From Deltaproteobacteria bacterium (lineage in GTDB: Bacteria; Myxococcota_A; Polyangia; Fen-1088): a stretch of 52,382 bases of DNA. Of this stretch, positions 9,322 to 51,018 are shown in pieces (within the stretch, counting starts at the first letter, position 1; every line of letters begins with the position of its first letter). The notes under the pieces were generated by a model that saw nothing but the letters and a program-made list of their open reading frames with translations, was not told the origin of the DNA and made no database searches. The stretch lies in contig JAFGPX010000313.1 in the NCBI GenBank assembly GCA_016935975.1, positions 1-52,382 on the forward strand, given 5' to 3'. The position numbers were made by a program, and so were the translations under genes.

Positions 9322-9346
9322 GGCGAGCGGCGCAGTCGCGGACTGC

Positions 9347-9352
9347 TATCAT
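9347..9352 (+). promoter_or_regulatory. -10-like hexamer, leaderless type
   Basis: TATCAT, 8 nt before the GTG at 9361, within the short gap after the preceding gene. Confidence 0.5.
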
Positions 9353-9360
9353 CTGGTTTG

Positions 9361-10263
9361 GTGGCAGCCGAGGTCCCGACCGAAGCCGTGGTGCGCGCCT
9401 CCCTCGACCGGAGGCAAGCCGAGAGCTACTCCTTGGTTCTCGAGGCCATGGCCATTCCGCACCGGGTGGTTCCGACCGATGCCGGCTTCGCGCTGACCGT
9501 GCCGCCCCGCATGGTGGCATCCGCCATCGCGGCCCTCGACGCCCAGGAGCGCGAGGTCGCCGAAGGGCCGCTGCGCGAGGCGCCGGTCCCGGACCACGGA
9601 CCGTCCTTCGTCGGCGTGGCCATGGTCGTCACCATCACTGCCTTCTTCGTGGTCAGCGGGCCGCGCGCCGGCGCGGACGTGGGGGGCTGGTTTCGCCTCG
9701 GCAGCGCCATGGCGCAGAAGATCGTGCGCGACCACGAGCTGTGGCGGGCCGTGACGGCGCTGTGCTTGCATGCCGACGCCATGCACGTGGCTGGCAACGC
9801 GGTGGCGAGCCTGGTCTTCGTGACCGCTCTAGGCCGGTGGCTGGGACCGGGCGTCGCCCTGCTCGCGACCTTGCTGGCAGGCGTCGCGGGCAACCTTCTG
9901 ACCGCCTTTCTCTATGCGACCACGCACAACTCGGTCGGAGCCTCGACGTCGACCTTCGGCGCGCTCGGCGTGCTGGGCGGCTTGCAGTTCGTACGCCGTT
10001 TTCGGGACGCCAGCGTCGGCCGCTTTCGGCGGGCGCTGCTCGGCATCGCGGCGGCGCTCGGCCTTCTGGCCATGCTCGGCATGGGCGAGCGCTCGGACGT
10101 GGTCGCGCACGCCACGGGGCTCGGCTTCGGGGTGCTGGCCGGCGTGGGTCTCGGTCTGCTCGTCAAGCGCCCCGTGCGCGGGCTCGGCCAGGCCTTGTGC
10201 CTGCTCGCCACGGTTTGCCTCCTGTGCGGTGCCTGGCTGCTGGCTTTTTGGGGCCATCGCTAG
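9361..10263 (+). CDS. rhomboid-family intramembrane serine protease
   Basis: 300 aa. An N-terminal cytoplasmic domain (about 80 residues, reminiscent of the alpha/beta N-domains of some rhomboids) precedes about six transmembrane segments. Rhomboid signatures: WRAVTALCLHADAMHVAGNAV (residues 128-148), the nucleophile in GASTSTFGALG (Ser195) and the partner in VAHATGLGFG (His249). A Ser-His dyad therefore looks intact, although the usual GASG is GAST. It should cleave transmembrane proteins within the inner membrane; substrate unknown. The GTG at 9361 is preferred to TTG at 9358 because TATCAT lies 8 nt before it. Confidence 0.87.
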   Translation: MAAEVPTEAVVRASLDRRQAESYSLVLEAMAIPHRVVPTDAGFALTVPPRMVASAIAALDAQEREVAEGPLREAPVPDHGPSFVGVAMVVTITAFFVVSGPRAGADVGGWFRLGSAMAQKIVRDHELWRAVTALCLHADAMHVAGNAVASLVFVTALGRWLGPGVALLATLLAGVAGNLLTAFLYATTHNSVGASTSTFGALGVLGGLQFVRRFRDASVGRFRRALLGIAAALGLLAMLGMGERSDVVAHATGLGFGVLAGVGLGLLVKRPVRGLGQALCLLATVCLLCGAWLLAFWGHR

Positions 10264-10264
10264 C

Positions 10265-10270
10265 TACACT
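10265..10270 (+). promoter_or_regulatory. -10-like hexamer, leaderless type
   Basis: TACACT, 6 nt before the GTG at 10277, immediately after the rhomboid stop. Confidence 0.5.
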
Positions 10271-10276
10271 GCCCGC

Positions 10277-11689
10277 GTGACCAGCGACCTTCAGAAACAG
10301 AACCCCACGCGCCTGCGCAGGAGCATCGCGGCTCTGCGCGAGGAATTCGCAAGCAAGCTGGCGGCCCTGGTGGCGCTGCCGTCCGTCAGCGTGGAGCCCG
10401 GCCGTCACGGCGACGTGCGCCGCTGCGCCCGTCTGGCCTGCTCGTACCTGCGCGACCTCGGCGCGCAGGCCGCCGTCATCGAAACCGGGGGACTACCCTT
10501 GGTCTGGGGACGGATCGTGCAAGACCCCGCCTTTCCCACGGTGACGGTCTACAACCACCTCGACGTGCAACCCGCCGACGGCGATGGCTGGCGCACCTCG
10601 CCCTTCGCCCTCGCGCGCGTCGGCGATCGCTACTTCGGCCGCGGCGCCACCGACGACAAGGGACCACTGCTGGCAGCGCTCTTCGGGGCCCGCCTGGCGC
10701 TCGCCGCGTCCGTGCGGCTCAACTTCCACTTTCTCTGGGAATGCGAGGAGGAGATCGGGAGCCCGAGCTTCGCGGTGGCGCTCGCTGCCCTGGCCAAGGG
10801 ATCGCGGCAGCGGCCAGCCCTGCGCACGGATTCCGTCGTGGTGTCCGACACCATCTGGCCCTCGGCCCAGAAGCCCGCCATCGCCTACGGCCTGCGTGGC
10901 CTGCTCGGCTTTCTCGTGCGCCTGCGCACGGGCGAGACGGCCGTGCATTCCGGCACCACGGGCGGCGCCGCTCGCAACCCCGTGGCCGAGCTGGCGGCGC
11001 TACTGGCCGGGTGCCACGAGGCCCGCACCGGGCGGATCCACATCCCCGGTTTCTTCGACGAAGTCCGCAAGCTGCGTCCGGCCGAGCGGCGCGAGCTGGC
11101 CCGTTCCGGGCTCGAGGTTGCGGCTTTTCGCAAGGCGCACGGCCTGCGCAGCCTGCGGGTTGCGGACGACCGGAGCTTGGCCGAGGCCATCATGGCCCGA
11201 CCCACCTTCGAGGTGCACGGCATCGTGGGCGGCTACGGCGGCCCAGGGATCAAGACCATCGTGCCCCACGAAGCCGAGGCCAAGCTATCGTGCCGGCTGG
11301 TGCCCGGGCAGCGACCGCGGCAGGTTTTCCGACGCCTGCGGCGCTTCATCGCAGACAAGTGTCCCGACGCCGAGGTGGTTTTCGAGTCGGCGCTCGAACC
11401 CTATCTTGCCGACTCAGAAGGTCCTTTCTTGCGGGCCGCCGGACGCGCCATGCGGGAGACCTTCGGCCGCCAACCCGCGCTCACGCGCGAGGGCGGCTCC
11501 ATCGGCGCGGTGGTCACCATGGCGCAGATCCTGCGCAAGGAGGTCGTGCTGCTCGGTCTGTCCTTGCCGGAGGACGGCTACCATGCCCCCAACGAAAGCT
11601 TCGCCTGGCCGCAGGCCGGAGGCGGTATCGAGCTTTTCTATCGCTACTTCCACCACCTCGCCGCCCTCGGTCGAGGTAGGAAGGGATAG
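10277..11689 (+). CDS. M20-family metallopeptidase (dipeptidase/carboxypeptidase-like)
   Basis: 470 aa, GTG start. M20 metal-binding motifs are intact: YNHLDVQPADGDGW, GRGATDDKGPLLAAL and LWECEEEIGSPSF, with a late YHAPNE histidine. The lid/dimerisation domain is in the middle (GGAARNPVAELAAL, FEVHGIVGGYGG). It resembles the ArgE/DapE/CPG2 dipeptidase group and the carnosinase-like dipeptidases. No signal peptide, so it is probably cytoplasmic. The frame is open well upstream, inside the rhomboid gene; the GTG is chosen from the TACACT hexamer 6 nt upstream and the start of M20 homology soon after. Confidence 0.9.
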   Translation: MTSDLQKQNPTRLRRSIAALREEFASKLAALVALPSVSVEPGRHGDVRRCARLACSYLRDLGAQAAVIETGGLPLVWGRIVQDPAFPTVTVYNHLDVQPADGDGWRTSPFALARVGDRYFGRGATDDKGPLLAALFGARLALAASVRLNFHFLWECEEEIGSPSFAVALAALAKGSRQRPALRTDSVVVSDTIWPSAQKPAIAYGLRGLLGFLVRLRTGETAVHSGTTGGAARNPVAELAALLAGCHEARTGRIHIPGFFDEVRKLRPAERRELARSGLEVAAFRKAHGLRSLRVADDRSLAEAIMARPTFEVHGIVGGYGGPGIKTIVPHEAEAKLSCRLVPGQRPRQVFRRLRRFIADKCPDAEVVFESALEPYLADSEGPFLRAAGRAMRETFGRQPALTREGGSIGAVVTMAQILRKEVVLLGLSLPEDGYHAPNESFAWPQAGGGIELFYRYFHHLAALGRGRKG

Positions 11690-11699
11690 CCCCAACGCC

Positions 11700-11745
11700 G
11701 GTCACTTGTGCTTCCGCGGGCCCCCGTGCCCTCTGTGGTTGCCGG
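11700..11745. repeat. possible degenerate half of the CACAGAG dispersed repeat
   Basis: The run ending in CCCGTGCCCTCTGTGGTT resembles the right arm of the elements at 19022 and 31815, but no left arm is recognisable. Weak. Confidence 0.25.
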
Positions 11746-11768
11746 GTTGCAGAGCGGCAGCCCGCGGG

Positions 11769-11774
11769 TATGTT
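11769..11774 (+). promoter_or_regulatory. -10-like hexamer, leaderless type
   Basis: TATGTT, 6 nt before the ATG at 11781, with TTGCAG 16 bp upstream as a possible -35. Confidence 0.55.
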
Positions 11775-11780
11775 TCGGTG

Positions 11781-12224
11781 ATGGCCGAGGTGTCCGACAA
11801 GGCAGCGCCGGTCAGTCGGCGCACGGCGTGGAAGATCCTGCTCACCGTCGCGGTTTTGGCCAGCGCCATACTCGGGCTTGTGTGGGCCTCGCTTGGCGAA
11901 GGCGCCGAGTACTACAAGCACGTGGACGAGGCGCGCGCCAGCCAGACGCGCCTTGCCGGCAAGCGCCTGCGCCTGCACGGCAACGTGGTGCCAGGCACCA
12001 TCGTCCACCAGGCCGGGACGCTCGACTACCGCTTCGCGCTGGAGAGCAAGGCGCCGCGCGCGCACGCCACCATGACGGTCGAGTTCCACGGCATCGCGCC
12101 CGACCTGTTCAAGGAGGGCGCCGAGGTCGTGGCCGCGGGCGTGCTCGGCAGTGACGGGCGACTCAAGTCCGACCGCATCGAAACCAAGTGCCCCTCGAAA
12201 TACGAGGCGCAGAGGCAAGAGTAG
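11781..12224 (+). CDS. ccmE: CcmE-type periplasmic heme chaperone, CxxxY variant
   Basis: 147 aa. One N-terminal transmembrane anchor (about residues 17-36), then a small OB-fold-like domain (LRLHGNVVPGTI, LDYRFALES, VEFHGIAPDLFKEGAEVVAAGVL). In classical CcmE the heme-attaching residue is the His of HDENY. The equivalent position here is Cys137 in KCPSKYE, leaving CxxxY with Tyr141, the type known in the CcmE of some deltaproteobacteria and archaea (system I*). It should carry heme covalently for cytochrome c maturation. No other ccm gene is in the window. The start is supported by TATGTT 6 nt upstream. Confidence 0.87.
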   Translation: MAEVSDKAAPVSRRTAWKILLTVAVLASAILGLVWASLGEGAEYYKHVDEARASQTRLAGKRLRLHGNVVPGTIVHQAGTLDYRFALESKAPRAHATMTVEFHGIAPDLFKEGAEVVAAGVLGSDGRLKSDRIETKCPSKYEAQRQE

Positions 12225-12308
12225 CGGGATCCACCCCGGAGGCGCGGAGGCCGTGGGTCCGATCTGTGTGCAATTGGGGCGGGCAGCATGTAGAACCCCG
12301 AGCGAGCC

Positions 12309-13487
12309 ATGCCGGAGAAGCGCCCAACGCCGCATGCCAGCAAGACGGGGGACGTGGGTCACAACCACGCGCTCGACGGGCTGCGCTTCTTTGCCTTCCT
12401 GCTGGTCTTCTTCTTTCACGCCCTGCAGAAGAGCCCCTGGGGCAATTGGCCGATCATCCGCTTCGGCTACCTCGGCGTGCCCATCTTCTTCGTGCTCTCC
12501 GGCTTCCTCATCGGCGGCATTCTGCTCGACCTCAGGGACAAGCACCGCCCGGGCTTCGGCCTTGCGGCCAAGCTCAAGACCTTCTACATCCGGCGCGCCC
12601 TGCGCATCTTCCCCGTCTACTATCTCTTCATCGGCATCCTGGCCTTGCTGCTCGCGATGTCGGGCCGGCCGGATCCGGTGGCGCGCGACAGCTTCTTCTG
12701 GCACCTCGCGTACCTGACCAACTTCCGTTCCTTCTTCGCGGGCATGGACAATATCCGCCAGGCCCATTTCTGGAGCCTGGCGGTCGAAGAGCACTTCTAT
12801 CTGCTGGCGCCCCTGGTGGTGCTGCTGGCGCGTCCGCGCACGCTGGCGGGTCTTTTGGCCTCCATCATCGCCGCCGTGGCGGTCGCGCGCTATGCGATCT
12901 ACGCGACCGGCTCGGCGCGCGACTTCTGGGTGCTGTCGCCCATGCAATTCGATCTGCTCGGTCTCGGCATCGCCACGGCCATCATCGAGCGCAAGGGCAG
13001 TTGCCTCGGCATCGATGCGCGGAGGCTGCGCATGCTGGGGCTTCTGTCCGCGGTGTTCTTCGTCCTTTTTGTCAGGCGGTTCTACCTGGGCCGCCCCGGC
13101 ATCGGCATCTGGTACGCGACCTTCGGTCCGCTCTCGCTCGGTGTGGCCACGGCCGCGCTGGTGCTGACCCTCTGGCAGCGTCCAACCTGGCTGGCCGCGC
13201 GCTTCCTTGCCTTGCGGCCCTTCGCCTACTTCGGCCAGATCAGCTACGGGCTCTATCTCTTCCATCCCAACTGCCTCGGGTGGAGCGAGCAGTACTACGG
13301 CAAATACAACCTGCCCAACACCTTCGTCGGGCTTGTGGCGACACTGGCGGTCGCCATGCTTTCCTGGCACACGTTCGAGAAGCCCATCAACAACCTCAAG
13401 AACCGCTTCCACTACGCCGGCAAGCACAGGGCCCCGAAGGCGCCCGACGAACCATCCCTGGCCCGCGTCCCTGCGCACGAAACCTAG
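12309..13487 (+). CDS. acyltransferase 3 (OafA/YrhL-like) membrane O-acyltransferase
   Basis: 392 aa with about ten hydrophobic segments. The family is recognisable from LDGLRFFAFLLVFFFH (catalytic-region His), GVPIFFVLSGFLIG, RRALRIFPVYY and FWSLAVEEHFYLLAPL, ending with ISYGLYLFHP. These inner-membrane enzymes transfer acyl groups, often acetyl, to sugars of lipopolysaccharide, peptidoglycan or exported glycans. The acceptor is unknown. The stop shares the CTAG at 13484-13487 with the stop of the convergent permease gene. Confidence 0.9.
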   Translation: MPEKRPTPHASKTGDVGHNHALDGLRFFAFLLVFFFHALQKSPWGNWPIIRFGYLGVPIFFVLSGFLIGGILLDLRDKHRPGFGLAAKLKTFYIRRALRIFPVYYLFIGILALLLAMSGRPDPVARDSFFWHLAYLTNFRSFFAGMDNIRQAHFWSLAVEEHFYLLAPLVVLLARPRTLAGLLASIIAAVAVARYAIYATGSARDFWVLSPMQFDLLGLGIATAIIERKGSCLGIDARRLRMLGLLSAVFFVLFVRRFYLGRPGIGIWYATFGPLSLGVATAALVLTLWQRPTWLAARFLALRPFAYFGQISYGLYLFHPNCLGWSEQYYGKYNLPNTFVGLVATLAVAMLSWHTFEKPINNLKNRFHYAGKHRAPKAPDEPSLARVPAHET

Positions 13488-34398: not shown

Positions 34399-34549
34399 CC
34401 GCGGCGCGGTCGCGTGGAGAGCCGCCGAGCTTCGCGCGGCGCGGACCATCGCGCGCGGGCATGGAAGCCCTTGCACGGAGGCTCGCAGGGGTTGCATGGC
34501 AACGTTTTCTGCGCTTGCCACCCCGGCCACCTTGACCGACTCTAGGGGC

Positions 34550-35884
34550 ATGATCATCACCTTGCGTGAAGCCCGGGCCGAGGCGCGAAAGCTGCGCGAG
34601 CAGGGGGATTTCGCGCGCGCCCTCACCGTCTACCAGCACATTCTCGCGGCGGTTCCCCTCGACTACGAGGTGCGCATGCTGGTGGCCGACGTGCTCGTCG
34701 AGGCCTGCGAGTCTGAAGCCGCAGCCCAACTCTATCGCACGATCGCCATTCACGACATCCGGGCCGGGCATCCGCTGCCCGCGCTCGTCGGTTGCCAGGC
34801 CCTGGCGAAGCTCGGCCGACCCATTGGCGACATCGAGGCCCTGCTGGTCCAGACCTATGCCTCGGGCTCGCCGTACCTGGCCCGTTTTGCCATCCGCCCG
34901 GCGCCGGTCGATCCGAACACCAAGTTCGAATCCGGCAGCATCGCCAGCCCGAAGTCGCTGCAGCACGCGGCCGAGCACGCGCTGCGCGCCGCTCTCGATC
35001 TCTCTGTCTACGTCGGCTACCAGGAGCAGTACCATCCGCTGCCCTTCCTGTCCGAGCTGTCGCAGGAATCCTTCATCGCGGTGGCGCGCACGCTCGCCGT
35101 CCTGCGCCTCAAGCACGGGCAACTCGTCATGCGCCAGGGCGATGTCGGCGATTCGCTCTTCCTGGTGGCGAGCGGAGAGCTCTTGGTGTTCGTGGACACC
35201 CCGCAAGGGCCGAGGGACGTGGCGCGTCTGTTCGAGAACACGCTCTTCGGCGAGATGGCCTTGATCACCGGTCAGCCGCGCACCGCCTCCGTGGCCGTCG
35301 TGGGCGAGGCCGATGTCATCCAGGTGAGCAAGGCGGCCTTGCTGCAGGTCATGCTGGCGGTCCCGTCGGTGCGCGACGCGCTCGATCGCTTCTCGCGCGA
35401 GCGCCTGATCAAGAATCTGCTGCAGACCTCGCCGCTCTTCGCGCCGTTCACCAAGTCGCAGCAGGGGGAGCTGCTGCGCCACTTCGAAGGGCACGAGATC
35501 GAGGCCGGCGTCGATGTCATCACCGAGGGCGAACCGGGCAAGGGACTGTTCCTCATCCTCTCCGGCGAGGTCGATGTCCTCAAGGATGCCGGAGGGTCCT
35601 CGCCGGCGACGCTGGCGCACCTCAAGAGCGGCGACATGTTCGGCGAGATGTCGCTCGTCACCGACCAGCCCACCACCGCCACGGTGCGCGCGACCTTGCC
35701 CACGACGGTGCTCTTCTTGGCGCGCGAATACGTGGAGCGCTTGGCCGCGGCCGTGCCGGAGATCGAGGCTTACTTCGAGGAGCTGGCCATGAACCGCGCG
35801 CGCGACAACACCATGCGCAAGGAACGAGGCGCGGTGCCGGCCGAAGCGGTCGAGGTCGATCTCAGCGACATCGTCCCGGTCTAG
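34550..35884 (+). CDS. protein with TPR-like N-terminus and two cyclic-nucleotide-binding domains
   Basis: 444 aa. The N-terminal helical part (REARAEARKLREQGDFARALTVYQHILAAVPLDYEVRML) is TPR-like. Two CNB domains follow at about 170-290 and 295-410: QGDVGDSLFLVASGELLVF with FGEMALITGQPRTASV, and EGEPGKGLFLILSGEVDVL with FGEMSLVTDQPTTATV. The Arg in QPRTA of domain 1, which contacts the cyclic phosphate in cAMP-binding domains, is Thr in domain 2, so domain 2 may bind differently. No HTH, so it is a cytoplasmic sensor or scaffold. It could read a signal from the cyclase at 46565. Confidence 0.88.
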   Translation: MIITLREARAEARKLREQGDFARALTVYQHILAAVPLDYEVRMLVADVLVEACESEAAAQLYRTIAIHDIRAGHPLPALVGCQALAKLGRPIGDIEALLVQTYASGSPYLARFAIRPAPVDPNTKFESGSIASPKSLQHAAEHALRAALDLSVYVGYQEQYHPLPFLSELSQESFIAVARTLAVLRLKHGQLVMRQGDVGDSLFLVASGELLVFVDTPQGPRDVARLFENTLFGEMALITGQPRTASVAVVGEADVIQVSKAALLQVMLAVPSVRDALDRFSRERLIKNLLQTSPLFAPFTKSQQGELLRHFEGHEIEAGVDVITEGEPGKGLFLILSGEVDVLKDAGGSSPATLAHLKSGDMFGEMSLVTDQPTTATVRATLPTTVLFLAREYVERLAAAVPEIEAYFEELAMNRARDNTMRKERGAVPAEAVEVDLSDIVPV

Positions 35885-45857: not shown

Positions 45858-46565
45858 ATGGCGATGAGAGATCTATTCGGTGCGGCCGTTGTGGCGGCCG
45901 TGGTATCGGCAGGAACAACCTACGCGCTGCAGCGCACGATGTCGCAGCAGGATGCTGTCGAGGTGCCCTCGGTGCTCGGGCTGCCGGGGCAGAGCGCCCG
46001 CGAGCTGGTCGAGAGCCGTGGCTTCATGTTCGTGGTGGGCGAGGAACGAGAGGAGGCGAAGACCCCGGCGGGCACCGTGGTGGCGCAGAAGCCGCTGCAA
46101 GGCTCGCGCATCGAGCGCGGCCAGCGGGTGGAGGTGGTGCTGGCCAAGGCGCCGGCGCCGGTCAAGATGCCGGGCTTGGCCGGGCTGGAGTTGGCCGACG
46201 CGAAGGCGCGCATCGAGGCGGCGAAGCTGGTGGTAGGCAAGGTCACCGAGGAGAACAGCGACGAGGTCAAGGCCGGCAGCGTGATCTCGCAGGTTCCGGC
46301 CCAGGGTGGCGAGGCCAAGGTGGGCACGGCGGTCGACCTCGTGGTCTCCAAAGGGGTAGCCACGATCGCGGTTCCCCAGGTGGTCGGGCGCTCGCTCGGC
46401 CGGGCCAAGGCCGACCTCGTCAAGGCGGGCTTCGCGGTCGGCACCGTGAAGGCGCGCTACGACGAGGATCGCAGCGACGGGCTCGTCCTCGACCAGAATC
46501 CCGCGGCCGACCAGCAGGCGGCCAAGGGCTCGGCCGTGGATCTGATCGTGAACCGAACCGACTGA
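45858..46565 (+). CDS. membrane-anchored protein with three PASTA domains
   Basis: 235 aa. N-terminal TM (LFGAAVVAAVVSAGTTYAL), then three PASTA repeats: VEVPSVLGLPGQSARELVESRGFMF, VKMPGLAGLELADAKARIEAAKLVV and IAVPQVVGRSLGRAKADLVKAGFAV, each with a GTVVAQKP, GSVISQVPAQG or GLVLDQNPA half. PASTA domains usually sense peptidoglycan fragments or beta-lactams on the outer side of kinases and penicillin-binding proteins. Here no kinase is attached; the adjoining gene, coupled by a one-base overlap (TGATG), encodes a nuclease-like/cyclase protein, which suggests that this is its envelope sensor. Confidence 0.9.
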   Translation: MAMRDLFGAAVVAAVVSAGTTYALQRTMSQQDAVEVPSVLGLPGQSARELVESRGFMFVVGEEREEAKTPAGTVVAQKPLQGSRIERGQRVEVVLAKAPAPVKMPGLAGLELADAKARIEAAKLVVGKVTEENSDEVKAGSVISQVPAQGGEAKVGTAVDLVVSKGVATIAVPQVVGRSLGRAKADLVKAGFAVGTVKARYDEDRSDGLVLDQNPAADQQAAKGSAVDLIVNRTD

Positions 46566-47815
46566 TGCCAGACTCCGCAAAACCGAGCGCGCCAATCCAC
46601 TTCCTTCGCCAGCTTCGTCTCTTTCTCGAGGAGCTGTGTTGCGAGATCGCTCGCTTCCAGGTGGTGGGGCACCATGGCCTGGGCGCGGAAGCAGTCACGG
46701 TGGCGCGCGAGGTGGACCTGGGCGTGCCCGGCGCCTTCGCCGACGTGGTGGTGCGCGCACCCGGCCGGCCGCCGTTCTTCCTCGAGGTCAAGGTCGGCTA
46801 CGCGGCCGACCGCATGGTCGAGCACTTCGCGCGCAAGTACCAAGCCCCGTCGCCGGCCGTGCCCGGCGCCGACCGCGTGATCGTGGTCGTGGATCGCGCG
46901 GGGAGGCCGGACTTCCCCGAGCTCGAGGCGCGCCTGCGCAAGGCCGCGCACCGCGGGCTTGCGCTCGAATTCTGGGACGAGGAGCGCCTGCGCGCGCTGG
47001 TCACCCAGTGTTTTGGCGTGGGCCTGCCGGCCATGACGGACGAAGCCCTGGCCGACCTGCGCAACGCCATCGACGATATCAAGTGGCGCTGGGCGTTCGG
47101 CGAACGTCACGTCGAAAGCCCGCTCAAGACCTCGCTTCTGTGGCACTTCGGCTACTCGCGCCTGCTGCAGCTGCACAAGGTGCACGGCTTTTCGCCCGAG
47201 CAGATCCTGCCGCCGCGGCGCTTTCGCAACGCCGTGGTCCTGCTCGCGGATCTATCGTCGTTCTCCAGCTTCGTGCGCGACACGCGCGACGACGAGGTCA
47301 TGCGCGACGCCTTGACCACGTTCTACTCCGGCTCGCGCTACGCCGTGATCAACACCGGCGGCATGGTGTCGCAATTCGTGGGCGACGAGCTGCTGGCCCT
47401 GTTCGGCGTGCCGGACGTACAGGACGGCTACGCCCTGCGGGCCCTCGAGTGCGCGCGCTCTCTTCTGCACATCGGCAGCTCGGTGTCGAACCGTTGGCAG
47501 CGCGAGATCGATCGCGTGCAGCCCGCGGGTGGCGTGCACATCGGCATCGCCATGGGCGACATCCAGTCGGTGCTCTACCGCCCGTTCTGCCGCAGCCACG
47601 TCGGCGTCGTGGGCGACGCCGTCAACGTGGGGGCGCGGCTTTTAGCCCAGGCCGCGACCAACCAGATCGTGGTGTCCAACACCTACTTCCGCACCCTGCC
47701 GGATCGCGAGCAGGCGGCCTTCCAAGAACTGGAGCCGCTCGAGGCCAAGAACGTGGGACTCATCAAGGCCTGGAAGCTCGTGCAGCAATCGAGCTACTCG
47801 ACGCGCGGCGCATAG
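46565..47815 (+). CDS. PD-(D/E)XK nuclease-like domain fused to class III nucleotide cyclase domain
   Basis: 416 aa, soluble. N-terminal region (about 45-110): GAFADVVVRAPGRPPFFLEVKVG gives Asp60, Glu74 and Lys76, the D-Xn-ExK pattern of PD-(D/E)XK nucleases. Residues about 222-375 are a class III cyclase: VVLLADLSSF (Asp229), FVGDELLALFG (Asp274), VHIGIAMGD, and VVGDAVNVGARL with Asn354 and Arg358, so both metal Asp and the transition-state residues are present. The two base-selecting positions are Gln270 (usually Lys) and Gly347 (usually Asp or Thr), so ATP specificity is not expected. The start overlaps the PASTA gene stop by one base. Confidence 0.72.
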   Translation: MPDSAKPSAPIHFLRQLRLFLEELCCEIARFQVVGHHGLGAEAVTVAREVDLGVPGAFADVVVRAPGRPPFFLEVKVGYAADRMVEHFARKYQAPSPAVPGADRVIVVVDRAGRPDFPELEARLRKAAHRGLALEFWDEERLRALVTQCFGVGLPAMTDEALADLRNAIDDIKWRWAFGERHVESPLKTSLLWHFGYSRLLQLHKVHGFSPEQILPPRRFRNAVVLLADLSSFSSFVRDTRDDEVMRDALTTFYSGSRYAVINTGGMVSQFVGDELLALFGVPDVQDGYALRALECARSLLHIGSSVSNRWQREIDRVQPAGGVHIGIAMGDIQSVLYRPFCRSHVGVVGDAVNVGARLLAQAATNQIVVSNTYFRTLPDREQAAFQELEPLEAKNVGLIKAWKLVQQSSYSTRGA

Positions 47816-48417: not shown

Positions 48418-50820
48418 CTACTCCACGACCAGTGCGTTGAAGGCAGCCACGAGCTTGCGGCAGGCATCGAGCGCCGAGAACTCGGTTGCCTTGCGGCCGC
48501 CGGCGCCGTTGGCGAGCGCCACCACCTCCTCGGCTGCGGAGACGAAGTCCGTGGCGCCGCTCGTCTTCTCTAGGGCCTGCGGGGTGAGGCGAACGTAGTT
48601 CATGAAGGCCGAAAAGACTTGGTCGAGCTTGGCGCGCTTGTCCTCCACCGCCTGGGGATTGGGCGGCGATGCCTTGCGGCTGCGCAGCCATGACTGGGCG
48701 GCCAAGGCAATCCGCCGCATGTGCCAGGCCGGCTTCTGGCCTTCCTCCTTGCCTTGCCGCGACAGCTCTTCCACCTGCCATGCCGCGCGCGCGGCGAGAA
48801 ACTCGGCGCGGAACGATGTCGCCGCTCTGGCCAGCGTTTCCGGCTTGTGCGCCTTCTGGAGCGCGCCGAGGAAGGCCTCGGCGGCGGTCCGCAACTCGGG
48901 GAACGCGGGCTCGGTGTCTGCGGCCTCGGCGACGGCGAGTTGGCAGGGCCCCAACGCGTCATCGCCCGGCCGGCTACGGCCCTTCTTGGCATCGGCAGTC
49001 GCAGCGTCCGCCAGCGGCAGGCAATCGGCATAGCGGCCAAGCTTGGCGAAGGCACCGTCGATTTCCGCGGCCGGACGCGGGTTCTCCGGATAGTCGGTGT
49101 CGAGCTCGGCCGACAGGGGGGGCGGATCCGTCGGGCTCGGCACATCCAAGGTGTGGCTCAGGCGCACGCTGAGGGTCATCCCCGGCTTCACCGTGAAGGC
49201 AAACCTGCGGGTGATGCGTCCGGAGGCGGCCGCGTTCAGCACGTGCGGCCGCTCGCCGGTCGCATGGAGGGGCAGGACACCGGCGGTCACCGGGACATGG
49301 TCGATCTGCACGCTGGCCTCCTTGGGCTCGACGACCAGGGTCACCTTCTGGCTTCTGCCGAGCGCGGGCAAAAGGGGCGTCTTGCCTCCCGGGCCGAAGA
49401 TGCCGTACGCGAAGCGGGCGGCCACGGCCGCGAGAAGCAGGCCCACGGCGATGAGCAGCCATGGCCGCTTCTTGGGCGCAGCCCCGGATTCGGGCGGGGC
49501 CATCGTTCTTTCCCGAGGCGGCGGCGCCGGCCGCTGCACGGGTGTCACGAGGTCTCGAGGCGCTGCGGCTCGCTCGCGCGGGCTGGCCGCGGGCCGGGGA
49601 ACGAAACGCTCCGGTTCCGGCTGGGGCACGGGCCGGCTCGCGGGACTCGGACGGAAGGCCACCGACTGATCGAGATCGCCGGCCAGCAGTGGTGCCAGGT
49701 CGGCCTCGGGCGGCGGCGCAAACGGATCCGCGCCCGGCCTGGCCGCGCGTTTGCCGAGCGCCCGCGGCGCCGGTGTGGCTTCGCTCAAGACAATAGGCTC
49801 TCCGTCCGCAACCGCGGGCGCGGCGGGCGGGGGACCGGTGGCCACGGGAGCCAAGGTGATCTCCGCCTGGCCGCCCGCAATCTCGGCGCGCATGGCCGCG
49901 GCGCTCGGGAAACGCGCCCCGATGTCGCGCGACAAGGCGCGCGCGATCGCGGCTTCGATGGCGGGCGGGATGTCCGGCCGCAGCTCGCTCGGCTTCTGGT
50001 ATTTCCCCTCGAGGATCTGTCCCAGCACCTCGGGGTAGGTCTTGCCGAGGAACGGCGTGCGGCCGCAGAGCATTTCGTAGAGCACGACGCCAGCCGAGTA
50101 GATGTCGGTGCGGTGATCGATGGCGGTCACCTGGCCGATGGCTTGCTCCGGCGACATGTAGTACGGCGTGCCCAACACCGCGCCCACCATGGTGCCGGCG
50201 AACTTCGCGGTGGCCGCCGGCCCGGCCGCCTGCGGACCCAGGACCTTCGAGATGCCGAAGTCGACGATCTTGACGAAGTTGGACCGCTCCTCCTCGTTGA
50301 TGACGAAAATGTTGTCGGGTTTGAGGTCGCGGTGAACGATGCCGTTCTTGTGCGCGGCCCCAAGCCCGCTGAGCACTTGGCTCATCAAATCGATGGCCTG
50401 GGAAAGGGGCAGCTTGGGCGTCTGCTTGAGAATGGTCTCGAGCGAGCGGCCGTCCAGCAGCTCCATGACCATGAAGAGCAGCCCGTCCTTGGTGCGGCCC
50501 AGGTCGAATACGTCGATGATGTGGGCATGGCCGATGGCGCTGGCGGCACGCGCCTCGCGCTCGAAACGCGCGCCCATCTCCGCGTCGGCGCCCGCGCCCT
50601 CGATGAGGGTCTTGACCGCCACGCGCCGGCCGAGCGCCACGTGCAAGGCCTCGTACACCACGCCCATGGCGCCGCGCCCCAGCTCGCGCGTGATCTTGTA
50701 TTTTCCTTCCAGCAGCTCGCCTTCGCCCAGGGCCGGACGCGAGGGAGGCATGGCCCGTCCGGTTACCGGGCATTCTCTGGTGTCGGCTGGGTGTTCTCCA
50801 GCGCAGTGCGGACAAGGCAC
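48418..50820 (-). CDS. transmembrane Ser/Thr protein kinase
   Basis: 800 aa from a GTG. N-terminal short Cys motif (CPHC...CP, three Cys), kinase domain about 40-310: ELGRGAMGVVYEA, Lys70, HRDLKPDN (163-170), DFG (187-189) and YMSPEQ. All catalytic residues are canonical. A Pro/Arg-rich linker, a TM at about 455-480 (PWLLIAVGLLLAAVAARFAYGIF) and an extracytoplasmic domain of about 320 residues follow: a PEGA-like part (LVVEPKEASVQIDHVPVTAGVLPL), then helices. A receptor-type kinase signalling across the inner membrane. The start is supported by TATTCT 6 nt and CTGACA 29 nt upstream. Confidence 0.93.
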   Translation of the reverse strand: MPCPHCAGEHPADTRECPVTGRAMPPSRPALGEGELLEGKYKITRELGRGAMGVVYEALHVALGRRVAVKTLIEGAGADAEMGARFEREARAASAIGHAHIIDVFDLGRTKDGLLFMVMELLDGRSLETILKQTPKLPLSQAIDLMSQVLSGLGAAHKNGIVHRDLKPDNIFVINEEERSNFVKIVDFGISKVLGPQAAGPAATAKFAGTMVGAVLGTPYYMSPEQAIGQVTAIDHRTDIYSAGVVLYEMLCGRTPFLGKTYPEVLGQILEGKYQKPSELRPDIPPAIEAAIARALSRDIGARFPSAAAMRAEIAGGQAEITLAPVATGPPPAAPAVADGEPIVLSEATPAPRALGKRAARPGADPFAPPPEADLAPLLAGDLDQSVAFRPSPASRPVPQPEPERFVPRPAASPRERAAAPRDLVTPVQRPAPPPRERTMAPPESGAAPKKRPWLLIAVGLLLAAVAARFAYGIFGPGGKTPLLPALGRSQKVTLVVEPKEASVQIDHVPVTAGVLPLHATGERPHVLNAAASGRITRRFAFTVKPGMTLSVRLSHTLDVPSPTDPPPLSAELDTDYPENPRPAAEIDGAFAKLGRYADCLPLADAATADAKKGRSRPGDDALGPCQLAVAEAADTEPAFPELRTAAEAFLGALQKAHKPETLARAATSFRAEFLAARAAWQVEELSRQGKEEGQKPAWHMRRIALAAQSWLRSRKASPPNPQAVEDKRAKLDQVFSAFMNYVRLTPQALEKTSGATDFVSAAEEVVALANGAGGRKATEFSALDACRKLVAAFNALVVE

Positions 50821-50826
50821 CACGCG

Positions 50827-50855
50827 AGAATAACAGCACAGCGAAGCCCTGTCAG
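50827..50855 (-). promoter_or_regulatory. sigma70-like promoter, leaderless
   Basis: On the minus strand, CTGACA (50855-50850), a 17-bp spacer and TATTCT (50832-50827), with the kinase GTG 6 nt downstream. Confidence 0.65.
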
Positions 50856-51018
50856 CGAAGCGTCCTTCTCGGAGCACCGGCCGAGGCGTTCAAGGCCCGA
50901 CACCTCGGGTGGTGAATCCTCGACACCTGTCGCCTCGGGAGGGAAGCGGCGCATGTGTTTTCGCCAGCTTAGAGCGCGGTGCGGACTGGCGCGGGCCTTG
51001 CTGCAGAGGTCTTCCGCA

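Follow-up and report, generated by a model that had tools for sequence, protein, structure and literature searches.

A class III nucleotide cyclase fused to an N-terminal domain with a predicted PD-(D/E)XK nuclease fold in scattered bacterial phyla

RESULTS AND DISCUSSION

The window (the whole stretch of DNA analysed here, 52,382 nucleotides) encodes a 416-amino-acid protein (positions 46565 to 47815, + strand) in which a class III nucleotide cyclase is joined to an N-terminal domain with a predicted PD-(D/E)XK fold, an assignment based on the open reading frame (ORF), 21 full-length relatives with the same fusion, and AlphaFold2 models. The fusion and its sparse spread over several phyla suggest a sensor by which contact with nucleic acid is converted to a chemical signal. 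Our preferred reading, to which we give a probability of a little under one half, is that a nucleic-acid-sensing N-terminal domain gates the output of the cyclase. The window comes from a genome of 5.4 Mb in 341 contigs, the close relatives of which are deposited as Myxococcales MAGs. A preliminary description, made from the sequence, had proposed a nuclease fold, a nuclease motif retained together with the cyclase, an unusual pair of base-selecting residues, a functional coupling to the PASTA protein encoded upstream, and a possible Pycsar-like defence role; the first three proposals stood up to the analysis, and the last two did not. All of the residues that it singled out (D60, E74, V75, K76, D229, Q270, D274, G347, N354, and R358) lie at the positions that it named.

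The N-terminal domain is predicted to adopt a PD-(D/E)XK fold

AlphaFold2 modelled the whole fusion, with the family alignment as input, at a mean pLDDT of 91 and a pTM of 0.90, and the N-terminal domain alone at a mean pLDDT of 89. The N-terminal domain (residues 11 to 150; 46595 to 47014, + strand) is followed by a two-helix linker (residues 159 to 207; 47039 to 47185, + strand; helices at 159 to 178 and 188 to 207), which might serve as a transducing element, and by the cyclase domain (residues 218 to 406; 47216 to 47782, + strand). The predicted order of elements in the N-terminal domain is helix 11-37, strands 45-51, 58-64, and 71-75, helix 81-92, strand 104-108, helix 117-127, strand 133-137, and helix 139-150 (alpha-beta-beta-beta-alpha-beta-alpha-beta-alpha), and it contains the alpha-beta-beta-beta-alpha-beta core of the PD-(D/E)XK fold. 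The active-site geometry was read from strand positions in the model: Asp60, the acidic residue of the motif (46742 to 46744, + strand), is located on strand 2, and Glu74-Val75-Lys76, the (D/E)XK element (46784 to 46792, + strand), ends strand 3.

A Foldseek search of this domain against the PDB returned EcoT38I as the top match (E value of 7e-4, probability of 1.0), and SfsA, NucS/EndoMS, SPO1766, EcoO109I, and YaeQ were among the other top matches; all six are PD-(D/E)XK proteins. Unrelated folds (APOBEC and RNase HII) appeared at weaker E values. The TM-scores were low (0.25 to 0.35), partly because the model contains two extra helices. With the core present, the motif residues on the expected strands, and restriction and repair nucleases as the best structural matches, the PD-(D/E)XK fold suggested in the preliminary description is well supported by the models.

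Residues 1 to 215 had no assignment in Pfam, NCBIfam, or PADLOC, and the nuclease reading therefore rests on motif conservation and fold. Kinship to Mrr_cat (PF04471) and to pPIWI_RE_REase (PF18154) was not supported, since neither hhalign comparison scored above column-shuffled controls. The pPIWI_RE_REase model did give weak sub-threshold matches, in the same register, in two relatives of different phyla, and a local alignment that was not significant placed D60 opposite an Asp and E74-x-K76 opposite D-x-K. For the NucS family, the few, fragmentary members present in the class did not suffice to build a profile. The sole PDB sequence matches of the N-terminal profile were acyl carrier proteins (best E value, 0.001), which fell outside the motif strands and were judged spurious.

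The nuclease motif is retained together with an intact cyclase

Conservation was examined in an alignment of 22 rows, two of which (L028 and L050) are identical and probably represent one gene, so that 21 are distinct. D60 and E74 are invariant (22/22) and K76 is present in 20 of the 22 rows, being replaced by Val in L033 and by Cys in L040. Other conserved columns of the domain include G78 and W137, as well as E22, E23, and K91, which are likewise invariant. In a separate alignment of 19 N-terminal domain sequences, D60 and E74 are among just 10 invariant columns. The invariance of these two residues indicates that the motif is not a chance occurrence, as does its location on strands 2 and 3 in a structure predicted independently. 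Nuclease catalysis by this domain, as predicted from the fold and the conserved motif, is probable. The two exceptions, L033 (2382 to 3623) and L040 (5256 to 6509), are sister sequences labelled Alphaproteobacteria (tree support, 100/98), which kept D60, E74, and all cyclase residues; they form a natural catalytic-variant pair in which Lys76 has been lost.

That loss would suit another explanation, namely that the PD-(D/E)XK domain has no catalytic role and acts as a scaffold, dimerising the protein or holding a metal or small ligand, in a cyclase whose regulatory fold is simply unusual. The remoteness of the fold similarity and the lack of a sequence link to an active nuclease family point the same way. 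However, 20 of the 22 members, some with no more than about 40% identity, have the complete E/D/ExK set, which exceeds what a scaffold would need, and we consider this explanation improbable.

The fusion is sparsely distributed across phyla

Whole genomes and 84,980 GTDB species were searched for the fusion; the GTDB scan relied on two strict peptide patterns and found at least 20 loci. The full-length relatives share 39 to 85% identity and belong to the Myxococcota, Alphaproteobacteria, Planctomycetota, Verrucomicrobiota, and Lentisphaerota. Within the class, the fusion is patchily distributed (10 of 318 genomes), and the N-terminal domain was detected at an E value of ≤0.001 solely as a fusion to this cyclase (10 of 308 genomes); the genome searches scored the best candidates per genome, and the absences are not absolute. 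Plasmids gave matches to the cyclase domain only. The tree has two main groups that do not closely follow phylum lines, which makes transfer or frequent loss likely. MAG contamination could account for single cases; it could not account for the named isolates that carry the fusion, Reyranella sp. CPCC 100927 and Vineibacter terrae CC-CFT640.

The cyclase half has an unusual base-selecting pair

The cyclase domain matches PF00211 with 27.7 bits (curated cut-off, 21.9), and its closest solved structures are CyaC (1wc0/1wc1) and Cya2 (2w01). The metal-binding residues Asp229 and Asp274 and the first base position, Gln270, lie between 47249 and 47386 (+ strand), and the second base position, Gly347, and the transition-state residues Asn354 and Arg358 lie between 47603 and 47638 (+ strand). 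D229, D274, and R358 are invariant (22/22), and N354 is present in 21 of the 22 rows. The exception for N354, L035 (7983 to 9173), has Lys at this position and keeps the nuclease motif; it has no in-frame ATG, GTG, or TTG upstream of the conserved N-terminus. Of the two halves of the fusion, the cyclase is the more strongly conserved, with a mean column identity of 52% for the whole protein versus 44% for the N-terminal domain alone.

Position 270 is Gln in 18 members, Lys in 3, and Asn in 1, and position 347 is Gly in 21 of the 22; the pair thus reads Q/G in the majority, K/G in a clade made up of Reyranella, Vineibacter, and L042, and N/T in L039. In contrast, all 13 ordinary cyclases of the same class that were compared have Lys with Thr or Ser, so that the pair is indeed as unusual as first proposed. 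It does not match the residues of adenylyl cyclases (Lys with Asp, Thr, or Ser), and it shares the Gly but not the Glu of the guanylyl cyclase pair of the Cya2 type, having Gln instead. The Cya2 pair is E/G, and the second site varies among guanylyl cyclases (PMC4215837). By sequence, Q270/G347 resembles this E/G pair more than the K/T pair of ordinary adenylyl cyclases, and it would be compatible with cGMP, cAMP, or a nucleotide with another base as the candidate product.

A base pair unlike that of adenylyl cyclases might also be expected of an anti-phage cyclase of the Pycsar kind that produces cUMP or cCMP, and the PADLOC PycC models do match the fusion protein (E value, 3e-11); the patchy distribution within the class would fit as well. 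However, seven ordinary class III cyclases from that class match these models far better (best matches, 1e-22 to 1e-34, versus 5e-12 for the fusion), so the match of the fusion carries no specific information, and on this control Pycsar membership is not supported. The specificity residues of PycC enzymes are different ones (PMC11224242). In the family loci inspected, the fusion has no PycTM- or PycTIR-like gene next to it, there is no conserved effector pair, and the neighbours are mostly of metabolic or general signalling type (see below). The fusion was also not found in the phage collection or, in a scan by cyclase motifs, in the viral_contigs collection, a result that by itself says little about a chromosomal defence gene. 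We regard a Pycsar-like role as very unlikely. More generally, a match to the PycC models of PADLOC, which ordinary class III cyclases also reach with strong scores, is not a reliable basis for a Pycsar call on its own.

No conserved neighbour accompanies the fusion

The gene directly upstream (45858 to 46565, + strand) encodes a membrane-anchored, single-pass protein with three PASTA repeats (Pfam E value, 1.2e-41). Its stop codon and the start codon of the fusion ORF share one base (TGATG), and the same order with a 3-base gap was found in the other genome of the same genus (G002), an arrangement that would agree with the proposal that the PASTA protein senses the state of the envelope and the fusion is its dedicated transducer. 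Yet these are the only 2 of the 22 family loci with the pairing. In the sister genus, the PASTA orthologues are located on other contigs than the fusion, and two of those genomes (G007 and G013) have the PASTA gene and no detected fusion; outside the genus, none of the family loci has a PASTA neighbour. The pairing is thus confined to one genus, the PASTA protein looks like a chance neighbour that is probably outside the system, and the coupling is the least probable of the readings that we weighed. PADLOC matches of the PASTA protein to PD-T4-6 were attributed to the repeats, and this assignment was rejected; the same protein matches the PASTA-kinase model.

For the remaining neighbours, ORFs called with a simple GC3 heuristic were compared all against all, and no conserved neighbour gene was found across the family loci. 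The neighbours examined mostly have metabolic or general signalling functions (FolB, a solute-binding protein, a CBS protein, a histidine kinase, an AFG1 ATPase, and a short-chain dehydrogenase). Without a conserved neighbour, the fusion looks like a stand-alone signalling enzyme.

Several individual genes were recorded alongside. In the window, a 462-amino-acid protein with TPR-like repeats and two cNMP-binding domains (34496 to 35884, + strand; PF00027, E value of 4.3e-39), a possible receptor, is encoded about 10.7 kb upstream of the fusion. An 819-amino-acid Ser/Thr protein kinase without PASTA repeats (48418 to 50877, - strand) is convergent with the fusion, with a Cu/Zn superoxide dismutase gene between them. 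In L039, and in this relative only, the end of the fusion overlaps a downstream gene (9341 to 12748, + strand) for a 1,135-amino-acid membrane protein that carries HEAT repeats and, at its C-terminus, a cNMP-binding domain; it is the only adjacent cNMP-binding gene that a local profile detected across the family loci. Related 240-amino-acid glutathione transferase-like ORFs are located divergently upstream of the fusion in L037 (7087 to 7809) and L038 (3168 to 3890), and a similar ORF lies further from the fusion in L033 (10258 to 11295).

A nucleic-acid-responsive cyclase is the preferred reading

Most class III cyclases are dimers in which an N-terminal sensor acts through a helical transducer, and the arrangement of the fusion (N-terminal domain, two helices, cyclase) fits this plan. 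We propose that the protein is a soluble class III cyclase regulated by its N-terminal module, a PD-(D/E)XK domain in which the metal and catalytic site has been retained. This module would bind nucleic acid, and in most members would probably cut it; binding or cleavage would alter the dimer through the two-helix linker and so set the output of the cyclase. The resulting cyclic mononucleotide would be read by the ordinary cNMP-binding proteins of the cell rather than by a dedicated partner. The genome of the window has 11 cNMP-binding matches, and the lack of a conserved neighbour fits a diffusible signal read by existing receptors. The low TM-scores, the missing profile link to the nuclease families compared, and the absence of K76 in two members count against a gated cyclase of this kind, and the conserved E/D/K residues argue, at the level of sequence, for catalysis rather than sensing alone. 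In a more committed version, the fusion would act as a single-protein alarm for nucleic acid, with an active PD-(D/E)XK nuclease physically coupled to the cyclase, and the binding or cleavage of DNA or RNA would directly yield a mononucleotide second messenger, possibly cGMP or a nucleotide with an unusual base; we hold this version to be possible but doubtful.

The main rival to a gated cyclase reverses the direction of control. The nuclease would be the output, and the cyclase half, by binding NTP or by way of the product that it makes, would control a PD-(D/E)XK nuclease that degrades nucleic acid, combining signal maker and effector in one protein. The PD-(D/E)XK nucleases NucC and Can1/Card1 are gated by cyclic nucleotides, the conservation of D60, E74, K91, and (in 20/22) K76 is as expected of a working nuclease, and L035 lost Asn354 while keeping its nuclease motif. 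However, the AlphaFold2 model contains no cyclic-nucleotide-binding domain, and N-terminal sensors are the usual companions of class III cyclases. In addition, conservation is stronger in the cyclase half, which is intact in the only clade that lost the nuclease Lys; this pattern favours a nucleic-acid-responsive cyclase over a cyclase-gated nuclease. We consider the latter unlikely, though less so than the scaffold.

Comparison with known systems

Class III cyclases occur with many kinds of sensors. In the open-access literature, we found no description of one with a nuclease-fold sensor and none of a restriction endonuclease-class III cyclase fusion. Should the fused domain indeed read nucleic acid, one protein would link the state of DNA or RNA to signalling by cyclic mononucleotides, and the occurrence of the fusion in the Reyranella and Vineibacter isolates makes the question experimentally accessible.

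CyaC of Spirulina and Cya2, a guanylyl cyclase of Synechocystis, share the cyclase fold and catalytic residues with the fusion (TM-scores of about 0.72 to 0.86, target-normalised), and the Gly of the E/G pair of Cya2 corresponds to Gly347 (PMC4215837). The fusion differs from both in having Gln rather than Lys or Glu at the first base position and a nuclease fold rather than a CHASE2, GAF, or PAS domain as its N-terminal module. EcoT38I, SfsA, NucS/EndoMS, the MmcB-like SPO1766, EcoO109I, and YaeQ have the same core topology as the N-terminal domain, with the acidic residue on strand 2 and the (D/E)XK element on strand 3, but the match is one of remote fold only, and none of them is fused to a cyclase. 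PycC of Pycsar is a class III cyclase and, like the fusion, departs from the canonical base residues, whereas the fusion scores below ordinary cyclases on PycC models and is without a paired effector. Cas10 of type III CRISPR systems likewise combines a nuclease domain (HD) and a domain that makes cyclic nucleotides (the cyclase Palm) in one polypeptide; its HD and GGDEF-like Palm domains, however, are unrelated in fold to those of the fusion, and it works in a guided complex.
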